In this document: in pieces, positions 35,661 to 39,026 of the stretch
Layout: each line of letters opens with the position of its first letter
Numbering within the stretch: the first letter of the stretch is position 1
From: an uncultured Roseburia sp.
GTDB lineage: Bacteria > Bacillota > Clostridia > Lachnospirales > Lachnospiraceae
Assembly: GCA_947383215.1 (NCBI GenBank)
Contig: CANDCP010000030.1
Span: 1 to 39,439, forward strand
Direction of reading: 5' to 3'
DNA length: 39,439 nucleotides
The notes under the pieces: model-generated
Told to the model about the DNA's origin: nothing
Databases searched by the model: none
Seen by the model: only the letters and a program-made list of their open reading frames with translations
Made by a program: the position numbers and the translations under genes

Positions 35661-36662
35661 CTAATTCGTTATTAGTTCAATGTTCATTTTGAGTTCTTCT
35701 ATATTTTTATGGGTGTAAACCCGTTCACCCGTCCCTTTCGACTTATGCCCCATAATTCGATCAATACACACCTTGTTTGCCCCAGCAGAATCAAGGCGGC
35801 TTCTGAATGTGTGGCGGCACTCATGCGGGGTATGTTGCATTTTCAGCTTCCCCATGATTTCAGCCCACAATTCCCTATATTGTGTTTGGTTCAGCTTTTT
35901 CCCGTTGTATTCAAACAGATACCCGCTTTTTGATTGTTCAATCCTCTTTTGAACAATACTTTGAATTTTTGAATGAATGGGGACAAGTCGATTTTTCCCG
36001 GCAGCGGTTTTTGTTCCCCCGGTGATCGTTCCGGCTTCAAGGTCAACCGTTTCCGTTTTCAGGTCTATCATTTCCGAAATCCTGAATCCGGTGTAAAGGA
36101 AGAATAGGATTGAATCAACCCATTCCAATTTCTGGTTGTCCCATATCCGGGCAACTTCTTCATCCGTGAAAATCTCCTTGCTTGTTTCCGGTATTGGTGC
36201 AGAGGTAAGCAGATCGGAACAGCACTTTGAAATTATGTCCAGTTCCATAGCGAAACGGTCAAGGTGTCCGAACAAGTTTTTGATTGCCCCTTGTGTGGAA
36301 TAACCCTTTCCGCAGCTATCAATACAATCTTGCATTTGGTAAGATTTGATTTGCTTATATTTCACCTTTTCCAGCTTCACACAATGTTTGTATGCAGATT
36401 TCAGGGAACTTTGATTTGAAGCCCCCAATTTGACAGCCCGCTTTTCCAGCCACAATTTATATAGTTCCTGAAATGTGATTTTGTCCGTCTGTATATCCCA
36501 CGGATCATTATTGTATTGAGCAAGAAGGATAAGTCCTTCTTCCCGTGTGGCGGTATATCCTATGGGCTTTTGCTTCCCGGATATACCTTCCTTCACAACG
36601 TATGGTTTGCGGCGATTCCCTGATAGCTTAGTCACCGTACCATACCCATTTGGTAACTTCAT
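35661..36662 (-). CDS. int: Tyrosine recombinase / integrase
   Basis: A 333-aa site-specific recombinase. The N-terminal region (KLPNGYGTVTKLSGNRRKPYVV) is the arm-binding AP2-like domain; a SAM-like core-binding domain spans about 60-160. The catalytic domain carries the full set: Arg in FLYTGFRISEM, Lys in GGTKTAAGKNR, HxxR in HECRHTFRSRLDSAG, His in IMGHKSKGTG and Tyr in RVYTHKN. It reads toward the host junction, the usual layout for integrases next to attL. I chose ATG 36662 on the minus strand, nine bases after AAGGAAAGG; the in-frame ATG at 36671 is too near that site. Confidence 0.95.
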   Translation of the reverse strand: MKLPNGYGTVTKLSGNRRKPYVVKEGISGKQKPIGYTATREEGLILLAQYNNDPWDIQTDKITFQELYKLWLEKRAVKLGASNQSSLKSAYKHCVKLEKVKYKQIKSYQMQDCIDSCGKGYSTQGAIKNLFGHLDRFAMELDIISKCCSDLLTSAPIPETSKEIFTDEEVARIWDNQKLEWVDSILFFLYTGFRISEMIDLKTETVDLEAGTITGGTKTAAGKNRLVPIHSKIQSIVQKRIEQSKSGYLFEYNGKKLNQTQYRELWAEIMGKLKMQHTPHECRHTFRSRLDSAGANKVCIDRIMGHKSKGTGERVYTHKNIEELKMNIELITN

Positions 36663-36689
36663 AAAAATCATCCTTTCCTTGATTTTGGA

Positions 36690-36797: not shown

Positions 36798-37388
36798 TCA
36801 TAGTTCGATTTGAACCCCTGAATTTGTATTCAGTTCATGGAATTCTTTAACCAGTTTTGATGCAGAAGGGGGATTATTTTTAATATCGAAACCAATATAT
36901 TTCAACTCCCCTTGCTCCCCGGTATAGGTAATAATTAAATATTGGGTAGTGGTTTTCACCTTTTTATTTTTTGTCCTTCCCCCGATTATCGCACCCAAAG
37001 TCCCAAACATCACGCCTCCAGCGATTGCCCCACCAATACTTGAAACCGCCTGACTTTGAATTTCAGTGTCGGTTTTGATGGACATATCAGTGATTTTCTC
37101 TCGTGCCAGCTTGATGCTGGTTGTCCCGGCTTTGAATTCAATTCTATCCGAAAAAGATTTAATTTCACATAAGGTATTTTCTGGAATCTGTAGCCCGTCC
37201 ACATGATGAAATGCGGTATAAGATAAAATTCCGCTTTGTCGGATAGCTTCTTTGTTAGCTTTTGCCCTTTTCCGGGATTTTCTAATCATTAGCACAATCA
37301 GAACCATAACTGGAATTATAATCAATGGCGGCAACCATTCGGGAAAAGTCGCCGAACCGACAGAATTTGTTGTACCTGCAAGTAACAT
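36798..37388 (-). CDS. Small membrane protein with glycine-rich segment, unknown
   Basis: A 196-aa protein of unknown family. A short N-terminal stretch leads to one membrane segment, PPLIIIPVMVLIVLMI (about 20-36), then a basic KSRKRAKANK stop-transfer. The cytoplasmic part has a beta-rich region (LCEIKSFSDRIEFKAGTTSIKLAREKITDMSI) and a Gly-zipper-like hydrophobic run SSIGGAIAGGVMFGTLGAIIGG, then KTTTQYLIITYTGEQGELKYIGFDI. The layout recalls bacterial PH-like domains of element-encoded proteins, but I cannot assign it. ATG 37388 after AAAGGAG is preferred over 37442. It lies between integrase and repressor on the same strand and may act in immunity or stability; that is speculation. Confidence 0.7.
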   Translation of the reverse strand: MLLAGTTNSVGSATFPEWLPPLIIIPVMVLIVLMIRKSRKRAKANKEAIRQSGILSYTAFHHVDGLQIPENTLCEIKSFSDRIEFKAGTTSIKLAREKITDMSIKTDTEIQSQAVSSIGGAIAGGVMFGTLGAIIGGRTKNKKVKTTTQYLIITYTGEQGELKYIGFDIKNNPPSASKLVKEFHELNTNSGVQIEL

Positions 37389-37530: not shown

Positions 37531-37611
37531 AACTTGGTGCATCTTGAATTTTCTTGATTTTATGCGGTTTTTAACTTGAACCGCAACTTGAACCATCTTG
37601 GTGCCAACTTG
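37531..37611. repeat. Helically phased WWCTTG direct repeats
   Basis: Seven hexamers of AACTTG/ATCTTG/TTCTTG begin at 37531, 37541, 37551, 37573, 37585, 37595 and 37606: steps of 10, 10, 22, 12, 10 and 11 bases, about one helical turn. This 334-base non-coding interval (37389-37722) otherwise holds AT-rich sequence and the promoter at 37646. Such arrays bind proteins on one face of the helix, as integrase-arm or excisionase sites do. Confidence 0.6.
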
Positions 37612-37645
37612 GATTTATCTTCCACCTTCACCTTAACCGCTTGTC

Positions 37646-37674
37646 TTGACAGCCGAACATATGTTTGGTATAAT
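37646..37674 (+). promoter_or_regulatory. Consensus promoter with LexA-like operator in its spacer
   Basis: TTGACA at 37646-37651, 17-bp spacer, TATAAT at 37669-37674. The spacer includes CCGAACATATGTTTGG (37653-37668), a 16-bp palindrome with a single mismatch that matches the Gram-positive LexA/DinR box (CGAAC-N4-GTTCG) except for one base. A bound repressor would block polymerase completely. Confidence 0.75.
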
Positions 37675-37722
37675 TTCTGTATCGCTACCATAGAACGTGC
37701 GGCTACATAGAGGGTGAGAAGC

Positions 37723-37824
37723 ATGGACTATAAACAACTCATTATTGAGTTGCTTGATAAAGCGTCAGCCAATCAACTTAGACGGCTATATCACTTTATC
37801 AGGATGTATTTGGGGCTGGACTGA
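37723..37824 (+). CDS. 33-aa micro-ORF under SOS-box-like control
   Basis: Encodes MDYKQLIIELLDKASANQLR followed by RLYHFIRMYLGLD: one or two amphipathic helices (hydrophobic I/L/Y/F spaced every three to four residues), with no membrane segment. GAGGGTGAG precedes the ATG at good spacing, and a terminator overlaps its stop, so it is a complete transcription unit of about 160 nt. It runs against the end of the repressor gene. Small Firmicute phage and ICE proteins of similar look are known to me only as hypotheticals. An SOS-induced antirepressor or an RNA acting on the repressor mRNA 3' end are candidate roles. Confidence 0.7.
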   Translation: MDYKQLIIELLDKASANQLRRLYHFIRMYLGLD

Positions 37825-37842
37825 TGTTCAGCCCTCTTTTTC
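37813..37842 (+). terminator. Terminator of the micro-ORF
   Basis: Stem GGGCTGGAC/GTTCAGCCC (one G-T and otherwise paired) with a TGAT loop, followed by TCTTTTTCT. It overlaps both the micro-ORF stop and the convergent repressor stop. Confidence 0.8.
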
Positions 37843-38214
37843 TGTGTCATCAGCGGCAAGTTCTTTCGCTTTCTTTTCTAAAAATTCCCATTCGCTATCA
37901 GATAAACCCATGAGCATAGTTACAAACCGCTTTTTAAACTTGGAATCTTGACCGCCTAAAACTTTTCCAGCCCATGCCATTAGTTGATCTTCCATGTCCA
38001 ATTCTGCAAACATTTCTCCATTCCCATGTCGGAGCCAATTTTCATTGACATTGAATTTGGTGCAGATCAGGGAGATTACAGCATCACTGGGAGCATTTTT
38101 GCCAACTTCATATGCTCCAATATTTCCCCTTGATATTCCTATCTTGTCTGCAAATTCCTGCTGTGTTAAATCTAACTCCCTTCTTAGCTTTTTAATCCGA
38201 TCTTTCAAAATCAT
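37828..38214 (-). CDS. XRE-family repressor (CI-like)
   Basis: A 128-aa DNA-binding protein. Residues about 3-58 are the HTH_3 domain (RIKKLRRELDLTQQEFADKIGISRGNIGAYEVGKNAPSDAVISLICTKFNV pattern, with recognition helix at SRGNIGAYE). The phrase NENWLRHGNGEMF directly after it is typical of phage and ICE repressors. The acidic helical C-terminal half lacks the S24 autocleavage domain (no Ser/Lys dyad seen), so SOS inactivation by RecA is not expected to act on this protein itself. ATG 38214 after AAAGGTGG is chosen; the longer open frame would cover its own promoter. It likely binds the repeats at 38267-38315. Confidence 0.9.
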   Translation of the reverse strand: MILKDRIKKLRRELDLTQQEFADKIGISRGNIGAYEVGKNAPSDAVISLICTKFNVNENWLRHGNGEMFAELDMEDQLMAWAGKVLGGQDSKFKKRFVTMLMGLSDSEWEFLEKKAKELAADDTEKEG

Positions 38215-38233
38215 CACCACCTTTCTGTTACTA

Positions 38234-38262
38234 ATTATAAAGTCAAAAATGTTGCTTGTCAA
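38234..38262 (-). promoter_or_regulatory. Consensus promoter of the repressor gene
   Basis: On the minus strand TTGACA (38262-38257), 17-bp spacer, TATAAT (38239-38234): a perfect sigma-A consensus. Confidence 0.88.
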
Positions 38263-38266
38263 CAAA

Positions 38267-38315
38267 ATGTTGGTTAATTTCAAAAAAATGCTTGACAAAA
38301 GATATTAACCAACAT
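38267..38315. promoter_or_regulatory. Paired operator: 12-bp inverted repeat
   Basis: ATGTTGGTTAAT (38267-38278) and ATTAACCAACAT (38304-38315) are perfect reverse complements 25 bases apart. The right copy ends at the first base of the early -10 and fills the spacer; the left copy lies just upstream of the repressor -35. Further ATGTTG, CAACA and ACCAACA half-sites lie at about 38249, 38261 and 38329. Confidence 0.7.
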
Positions 38316-38320
38316 ATAAT
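38292..38320 (+). promoter_or_regulatory. Consensus early promoter
   Basis: TTGACA at 38292-38297, 17-bp spacer, TATAAT at 38315-38320: perfect sigma-A consensus, driving the SprT-like gene and those behind it. Confidence 0.88.
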
Positions 38321-38363
38321 TGCAATATACCAACAAAACAAGTAACAGAAAGGGTACTGGATC

Positions 38364-39026
38364 ATGGCAGAACAGAGTTTGAAACCTATAATTGATAAAC
38401 TTGAAAATTTATTTTCAAAGTTCAATGAAAAGTTTTACGGCGGTGAACTTCAAAAGCCGATTATCACCGTAAGCCCGGACACCACAAAAGGGGCTTATGG
38501 ATGGTGTACCGCATGGAAAGCGTGGAGCAACAAAGAGCCGAAAGCGATTTCCGAAATGAAACCGGAAGAAGTGGAAGCTATGAAAAATGAAGGGTTCTAT
38601 GAAATCAACCTTTGCGCTGAACACCTTGCAAGACCTTTTGAACACGTTGCTGAAACCCTCTTACATGAAATGGTTCATCTTTGGAACTTGCAGCAGGGAG
38701 TTCAGGACACTTCCAGAAGCGGGACTTATCACAATAAGAAATACAAGGAAGCTGCTGAACAACATGGTTTGACCGTTGAAAAAGATGCAAAATACGGGTG
38801 GACGAGAACAAGCCTGAACCCGGAAGCAAAAGCCTTTGTTGACAGCTTGCAGGACAAGAAATTTCAGCTTTTCAGGAAGCCTGAACTGAAACTTCCGGGA
38901 GCGTCCAAAACCAAACAATCAACCCGGAAATATGTCTGTCCCGGATGCGGTTGCATTATCAGAGCAACAAAAGAAGTGAATGTTATTTGTGGCGATTGTG
39001 AAATGAAGTTTGAGGAAGCGGAGTAA
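38364..39026 (+). CDS. SprT-like zinc metalloprotein
   Basis: A 220-aa protein of the SprT/Spartan-like family. The region FSKFNEKFYGGELQKPIITVSP near the N terminus, HExxH in ETLLHEMVHLWNLQQGV (about 97-113), a downstream HNKKYKEAAEQHGL and a C-terminal zinc ribbon YVCPGCGCIIRATKEVNVICGDC are all in place. Eukaryotic Spartan proteins cut DNA-protein crosslinks; bacterial plasmid and phage SprT-like proteins are often the first early gene but have no proven substrate. It is the first gene behind the early promoter. The stop lies in an 8-bp hairpin (GGAAGCGG/CCGCTTCC, 39014-39037) without a T-run, perhaps an mRNA-processing or coupling element. Confidence 0.9.
   Translation: MAEQSLKPIIDKLENLFSKFNEKFYGGELQKPIITVSPDTTKGAYGWCTAWKAWSNKEPKAISEMKPEEVEAMKNEGFYEINLCAEHLARPFEHVAETLLHEMVHLWNLQQGVQDTSRSGTYHNKKYKEAAEQHGLTVEKDAKYGWTRTSLNPEAKAFVDSLQDKKFQLFRKPELKLPGASKTKQSTRKYVCPGCGCIIRATKEVNVICGDCEMKFEEAE

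Follow-up and report, generated by a model that had tools for sequence, protein, structure and literature searches.

A LexA-type promoter and a candidate antirepressor microprotein convergent with the XRE repressor of a Roseburia prophage

A micro-ORF facing the repressor gene

The DNA analysed here is a contig of 39,439 nucleotides (nt) from an uncultured Roseburia sp. (CANDCP010000030.1, assembly GCA_947383215.1). We call this whole stretch the window; it is the entire contig and ends inside a prophage. Just downstream of the gene for the XRE-type repressor of this element, and converging on it, lies an open reading frame (ORF) of 33 codons, the micro-ORF. We propose, with a probability of roughly two in three, that it encodes a LexA-controlled antirepressor microprotein which imitates the C-terminal domain of the repressor and breaks the assembly of that protein. 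The proposal is drawn from sequence analysis, that is, from the promoter and its box, their conservation, a coding signal in the micro-ORF, a predicted hairpin, the profile likeness of this hairpin to the repressor C-terminus, and the shared divergence of the two. The features on which it depends are the following:

37646..37674, + strand: sigma-70-type promoter TTGACA-17-TATAAT (exact motif match)
37654..37667, + strand: LexA-type (SOS) box CGAACATATGTTTG within the promoter spacer (pattern match)
37710..37719, + strand: ribosome-binding region GAGGGTGAGA ahead of the ATG (from the sequence)
37723..37824, + strand: micro-ORF of 33 codons, proposed to encode an antirepressor and predicted to fold as a two-helix hairpin
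37812..37842, + strand: intrinsic terminator (stem 37812-37835 plus T-run), overlapping the stop of the convergent repressor gene
37828..38214, - strand: XRE repressor of 128 amino acids (aa), proposed target, with a helix-turn-helix (HTH) part, a C-terminal helix (74-86) and a hairpin (92-102, 106-127)

From these elements we infer the following course of events. LexA would bind the promoter of the micro-ORF and keep the gene off until DNA damage releases it. The two-helix peptide would then imitate the C-terminal hairpin of the convergent repressor, which is without a self-cleavage domain, and by pairing with the C-terminal domain it would break the dimer or higher assembly. Operator binding would drop, repression would be lost and the lytic operon would open, leading to induction of the phage. 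In this the peptide would act on the repressor much as SinI acts on SinR, and it would take the part that antirepressors play in the Gifsy phages.

Both hexamers of the promoter are exact (TTGACA at 37646-37651, TATAAT at 37669-37674) and are separated by 17 nt; the window holds three such exact promoters, where shuffles predict 0. The spacer contains CCGAACATATGTTTGG, in which the box and one base on each side form a 16-bp palindrome with a single mismatched pair. The micro-ORF runs from the ATG at 37723 to the TGA at 37822-37824 and encodes the peptide MDYKQLIIELLDKASANQLRRLYHFIRMYLGLD. It does not overlap the XRE ORF, from which it is 3 nt apart, and the terminator reaches the XRE stop (37828-37830). 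Family searches at the sequence level found only HTH-type families in the repressor, and no S24 (self-cleavage) domain. The initial annotation of this stretch had described the promoter, the near-perfect palindrome of Gram-positive LexA type, the terminator, the convergence with overlap of the XRE stop and the missing S24 domain. All of these hold, the overlap being made by the terminator and not by the ORF, and the box pattern recurs at recA, as detailed below.

Conservation of the arrangement among relatives

The same annotation had stated that its idea would be contradicted if related elements did not conserve both the box and the ORF; both were found to be conserved in many relatives. With an alignment of the repressor we took the 80 best-matching of 278 loci from genomes and the 80 best-matching of 411 viral ones, and examined 159 of these 160 loci (L222-L380; L033 was left out), comprising 143 distinct repressors, 140 of them with at least 150 nt downstream. 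A micro-ORF was called when its profile score exceeded 10, the best of 771 shuffled candidates having reached 8.5. A convergent micro-ORF of the family accompanies 57 of the 95 repressors of up to 135 aa, here called short, and only one of 45 longer ones (144 aa, without the box), a difference with a Fisher p of 2.5e-12 for a cut at 135 aa that was chosen after the tails had been seen. Within about 200 nt upstream of the micro-ORF, a LexA-type box with at most one mismatch is present in 37 of the 57 cases, exact in 14; in the same loci, such a box was found in 87/2,800 random windows and in 39/889 regions ahead of other ORFs.

The repressors longer than 135 aa (e.g. L251, L284, L267) extend at the C-terminus into additional tails, for example IDEKVALYRQELEREEK or PEELEKLYPPVD. 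We also considered an alternation in which long-tailed repressors would adjoin an ImmA metallopeptidase in place of the micro-ORF. It was dropped on the counts of nearby ORFs with the HExxH motif, which were 0/58 at micro-ORF loci, 1/38 at short repressors without micro-ORF and 1/44 at long ones.

Among eight viral relatives of the repressor, five (L065-L069) have a convergent micro-ORF together with a LexA-type box, and three with longer tails (L070-L072) are without them. When viral contigs were scanned for TTGACA-LexA core-TATAAT irrespective of ORFs, 34 loci were obtained, in 9 of which the promoter drives a member of the family; in the others it drives other genes or no clear gene. A micro-ORF profile of 11 rows, run against 397 genomes of the bacterial family, matched in 82 at E <= 0.1 and in 40 at E < 1e-3, many of the weakest matches among the 82 being probably due to chance. 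In the 30 best profile loci, the window included, a convergent HTH gene lies within 400 nt in 23 (controls 0/54 and 4/400) and a box with at most one mismatch within 220 nt in 10. Adjacent or tandem micro-ORFs of the family were seen at G220:C13:25907-26854, G195:C3:215595-215803, G022:C84:2552-2751, G302:C112:86604-87333 and G264:C39:24993-25207; at L196, L197, L218, L220 and L221, which come from these places, a convergent HTH gene was not found within 400 nt.

Likeness between the peptide and the repressor C-terminus

The new element in our proposal is that the peptide is predicted to form a hairpin resembling the C-terminal hairpin of the repressor itself. AlphaFold2 places helices at residues 3-13 and 16-30 of the peptide, with a predicted local distance difference test score (pLDDT) of 95.3, and the model of the repressor (pLDDT 89.4) shows the HTH helices followed by the C-terminal helix and hairpin listed above. 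When 58 micro-ORFs were compared by hhalign with the C-termini of their 58 repressors, the score was 20.8 (E 6.9e-5, 31 columns), a value reached by none of 200 column shuffles (mean 7.5, maximum 15.2); with 32 pairs it was 20.3, reached by none of 150. The micro-ORF profile pairs with the C-terminal hairpin over nearly its entire length, and with the HTH part of the repressor it scores 7.4 and 9.7.

The two also diverge together. In Mantel tests on the full set, micro-ORF distances correlated with those of the C-terminus with r 0.44, and the partial correlation given the HTH part was likewise 0.44 (0/2,000). After removal of near-copies, which left 41, r was 0.295 with the C-terminus (partial 0/2,000) versus -0.015 with the HTH part.

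Several observations weigh against the reading of the peptide as an SOS-induced mimic. At one mismatch, 20 of the 57 micro-ORFs are without a box, and 38 of the 95 short repressors are without a detected micro-ORF. The HTH part retains a partial r of 0.18 in the full set (13/2,000), and the part preceding the hairpin correlates (0.283) as well as the hairpin does (0.239). Since the C-terminal coding end sits nearest to the micro-ORF, linkage could yield part of the Mantel signal. There is no cognate excess, with BLOSUM values of 0.350 for own and 0.352 for other C-termini (2,602/5,000 permutations), and single-sequence profile matches to the C-terminus are weak. Finally, a copy of the prophage in another genome also has, in its early region, a BRO-type anti-repressor Ant (L385:13885-14616, named by PHROGs), which is a second candidate antirepressor.

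Another target for the peptide, with the repressor as a mere neighbour, is the first alternative to be weighed, and we regard it as unlikely. TisB is an SOS-controlled peptide of this size, so a TisB-like membrane toxin could be imagined here, as could an inhibitor of cell division or of a host factor. A partner of LexA such as gp7 of GIL01, an SOS-controlled peptide of similar size (available text of PMC4551915), would be a further possibility. The membrane toxin fits poorly with the helices, whose mean hydropathy values of 0.07 and -0.26 are near zero and not membrane-like. Against any such target stand the close convergent association with short XRE repressors (23 of the 30 profile loci), the near absence of the micro-ORF beside long-tailed ones (1/45) and the resemblance of the peptide profile to the repressor C-terminus. 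With regard to the peptide itself, the initial annotation had called it amphipathic. The ORF stands as described, and the amphipathicity of its peptide is only weakly borne out, as the hydrophobic moments of the helices were matched by 445 and 108 of 2,000 shuffles.

The same anatomy would also suit a peptide that associates with the repressor C-terminus as co-repressor or modulator and strengthens or redirects the repressor, so that SOS would adjust lysogeny and not end it. The small co-repressor Lxc and the dual-role modulator MOR are precedents (available text of PMC11323111). This possibility appears decidedly unlikely to us, on two arguments: under LexA control the peptide would appear just when lysogeny should end, and a protein that mimics an assembly domain is usually a poison to assembly.

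Coding signal and the RNA

The substitution pattern favours a peptide over an RNA as the product of the micro-ORF. In 60 pairs, aligned as plain DNA blind to the reading frame and chosen by repressor identity and not by peptide identity, substitutions at codon positions 1/2/3 numbered 409/292/671 (671 of 1,372 at the third); in 19 disjoint pairs they were 125/85/211. A count over 35 pairs with at least 60% peptide identity had given 260/156/483 (483 of 899 at the third), a choice of pairs that favours silent changes, and hence the repeat by repressor identity. Because substitutions concentrate at third codon positions, we conclude that the peptide is under selection.

These counts speak against the RNA as the agent, acting by convergent transcription or by antisense pairing at the 3' end of the repressor gene with the ORF incidental, which we consider quite improbable. 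In its favour, the transcript is convergent with a terminator that overlaps the repressor stop, and in the window it is unusually well folded (z -5.0; -4.3 without the terminator). However, of eight sequences folded, the window, L223 and L233 (z -4.3, -2.6 and -3.6) had the main stems in common, and the other five gave z -1.8, -2.1, -2.7, -0.8 and -0.9; among relatives the fold fades. In addition, Rfam gave nothing at gathering score between 37400 and 38400, with two weak matches (E 0.17 and 0.37). As a separate observation, a FuFi-1 RNA (L067:3421-3581, + strand) and a RAGATH-8 RNA (L033:2364-2617, - strand) lie within some hundreds of bases of the repressor gene in related phages.

The initial annotation had left open whether the micro-ORF or its RNA would be the SOS-responsive trigger of induction. 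Between the two, the peptide is favoured; the trigger role fits what was found, on comparative grounds, and since dozens of relatives have the same arrangement the micro-ORF is probably the trigger of phage induction.

The LexA-type box and the host SOS components

The only exact match to CGAACN4GTTYG in the window is the box at 37654-37667. Across all 2,858,544 bases of the genome this pattern occurs at two places (the pattern read backwards gave 12 and 12 matches), and the second one ends 17 bases ahead of the start of recA. The host encodes a LexA in an ORF of 204 aa (LexA_DNA_bind, E 3.5e-24), and the region upstream of its lexA contains, as read by eye, CAAACAACTGTTTG and TAAACACTTGTTTG. 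Since the same pattern is found at recA and similar sites precede lexA, the box matches the expected target of the host LexA, which would be expected to bind it. That the box fails to function as a LexA site here, the gene being constitutive or answering another regulator, is very improbable: one half of it deviates (GTTTG) and some relatives have instead another palindrome beside a small HTH gene, but GTTTG halves look usable because CAAACAACTGTTTG sits upstream of the host lexA, and a LexA-type box is present ahead of 37 of the 57 micro-ORFs.

Inputs other than LexA

In a somewhat wider set of 79 relatives, 19 have a small Cro-like HTH gene just upstream of the micro-ORF (among them L328, L329, L258, L262, L312, L219 and L289), mostly followed by a palindrome right after its stop. 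It should be noted that some loci overlap across our sets (L195=L248, L206=L274, L064=L065=L302) and that the set of 79 holds at least one such repeat. The palindrome is of a GTCC...GGAC type in 11 of the 19, all of which also have a LexA-type box, and of a TTTCC...GGAAA type in four (L289, L292, L312, L219), all without it. L213 has TTTCC...GGAAA-type repeats in its promoter and no box; as for the last three small-HTH loci, L198 and L358 have the box and L370 does not. Some micro-ORFs without a box thus have another palindrome instead, and the small HTH gene with its palindrome is likely a second input to the micro-ORF.

When exact GAACN4GTTC is counted too, a LexA-type box is present in 45 of the 79 loci and absent from 34. 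SOS control as a general feature of the arrangement is not upheld by this count, nor by the 20 box-less cases among the 57: LexA is one of several inputs in the family and not the only switch.

A wider proposal, for which we see slightly less than even odds, is that these microproteins of about 30-45 residues are a large unnamed family of antirepressors, each imitating the C-terminal assembly domain of the repressor that it targets, and are widespread as an induction plug among phages of gut Clostridia. The C-terminus and the microprotein would travel together while the HTH part and the promoter are swapped, the promoter having LexA boxes in over half of those seen and, in others, an operator next to a small HTH regulator. 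If this were true, immunity and trigger could be changed independently.

Comparison with known systems

Small antirepressors under direct LexA control are already known. According to the available text of PMC3121763, GfoA, GfhA and GftA of the Gifsy phages bind the uncleaved phage repressor and link the SOS response to induction, which is to be set beside the statement of the initial annotation that it knew of no described member of this type in this setting. As a functional kind, the present system is alike in the LexA box in the promoter of a small gene and, at the sequence level, in a window repressor without S24 domain; binding of the repressor by the peptide would be a further likeness, one that the profile match and the shared divergence support indirectly. 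It differs in that the gene is convergent with the repressor gene at 3 nt, and hence not outside the immunity region, that it has about 30-45 codons in the relatives, that it belongs to Clostridia and that its product resembles the repressor's own C-terminus.

SinI and SinR share a hairpin fold, and SinI is not known to be SOS-controlled. In Bacillus subtilis, SinI breaks the tetramer of SinR, a short repressor with C-terminal assembly helices, by forming a heterodimer (available text of PMC6123443). Our peptide is similar in being a predicted two-helix hairpin that resembles a repressor C-terminal domain, although without cognate excess; it differs in that it would serve as a phage switch. 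Pfam returned no family for the window peptide (E up to 10) or for 11 members of its family (E up to 1), and so no SinI model, which we take to be PF08671. SinR was absent among the PDB matches of the repressor profile.

Small antirepressor genes beside a regulator are also found in the transcription factor and small ORF (TF-smORF) modules of Vibrio and Aeromonas phages, and in Qtip. The available texts describe these modules as SOS-independent, and their small proteins as having little or no homology (PMC10432266; PMC11323111). The small HTH gene just upstream in 19 of the 79 relatives is a point of likeness, and beside the window micro-ORF no adjacent transcription-factor gene was seen. The difference lies in the LexA box, the commonest input seen here, and in the peptides, which form one family.

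In Lactococcus phage TP901-1, the HTH repressor CI, which has a helical C-terminal dimerisation domain, is accompanied by MOR, itself an HTH protein (72 aa), which blocks operator binding (available texts of PMC4941734 and PMC11323111). The partner proposed here is half the size of MOR and resembles the C-terminal domain.

LexA-controlled antirepression being already known, what is new is an unnamed family of very small predicted hairpin peptides shaped like the assembly domain of their proposed target. No credible relative was obtained with PHROGs or NCBIfam (weak matches, best E 0.024 and 0.043), in phage protein records searched with the window peptide (7 matches, best E 2) or in a sequence search of the PDB with the micro-ORF profile. 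A DNA-level search of named phages gave no match near 37600-38400. Literature searches found the family named nowhere, which is not proof as subscription papers were largely outside their scope.

To our knowledge, the induction by DNA damage of gut Clostridia prophages with a non-cleavable repressor is mostly unexplained. The micro-ORF, easily overlooked because it is about 33 codons long, is a concrete candidate for such a trigger beside 57 of 95 short repressors and, by eye, also in phages of Blautia, Terrisporobacter and Clostridioides. If the proposal is right, it would provide a repressor antagonist that is very small and simple in sequence, along with a marker to predict which gut prophages respond to SOS-inducing drugs.

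Named phages

From 51 phage records with a repressor match, six were inspected and their micro-ORFs assigned by eye. Blautia phage Montmirail encodes a convergent hypothetical protein of 39 residues (WAK79206.1), preceded by the box-like AAAACATATGTTCT. In Terrisporobacter phage TPDSL_ph2 the micro-ORF, with AGAACAAGTGTTCT, is not annotated, and Clostridioides phage ES-S-0173-01, whose record is unannotated, has one with AGAACAAATGTTCC. The unannotated micro-ORF of Butyrivibrio phage Arawn is without a box, and no clear member of the family was seen in the stretch inspected of Faecalibacterium phage FP_Epona and Clostridioides phage AR1086-1.

The prophage and other features of the window

The copy of the element in another genome has an integrase 95% identical to that of the window, and the repressor and the micro-ORF peptide are identical. 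This copy is backed by genes named by PHROGs as terminase subunits, portal, major head protein, tail sheath and tape measure, so the element appears to be a tailed prophage with a contractile tail. The remaining features of the window are:

35661..36671, - strand: tyrosine integrase of the prophage
37681..37688, + strand: ATCGCTAC at the expected transcription start (TCGCTAC in 14 of 34 LexA-box promoters of viral contigs)
37692..37705, + strand: AGAACGTGCGGCTA, possibly the remnant of a second LexA box (at the corresponding place, L195 and L318 have AGAACGTGCGTTTG)
38234..38320, no strand assigned: probable divergent promoters of the repressor and the early operon, with inverted repeats containing TGTTGGTTAAT, presumed repressor operators

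In the 14 viral promoters, TCGCTAC coincides with the expected transcription start or adjoins it, and in 12 cases it follows TATAAT at exactly 7 nt; besides the window, the carriers are L033, L035, L042, L044-L046, L049, L051, L054, L057, L059, L060, L063 and L064. The motif also precedes unrelated genes, and in a scan of viral contigs only 3 of the 119 places with TATAATN2-14ATCGCTAC had a LexA box.

Between the integrase gene and the micro-ORF, positions 36798-37388 (- strand) encode a protein with an N-terminal hydrophobic stretch, seen by eye, that matches PHROGs of unknown function (phrog_17658, E 1.6e-16). The first gene of the divergent operon, at 38364-39026 (+ strand), encodes a SprT-like protein (PF10263; phrog_6361).
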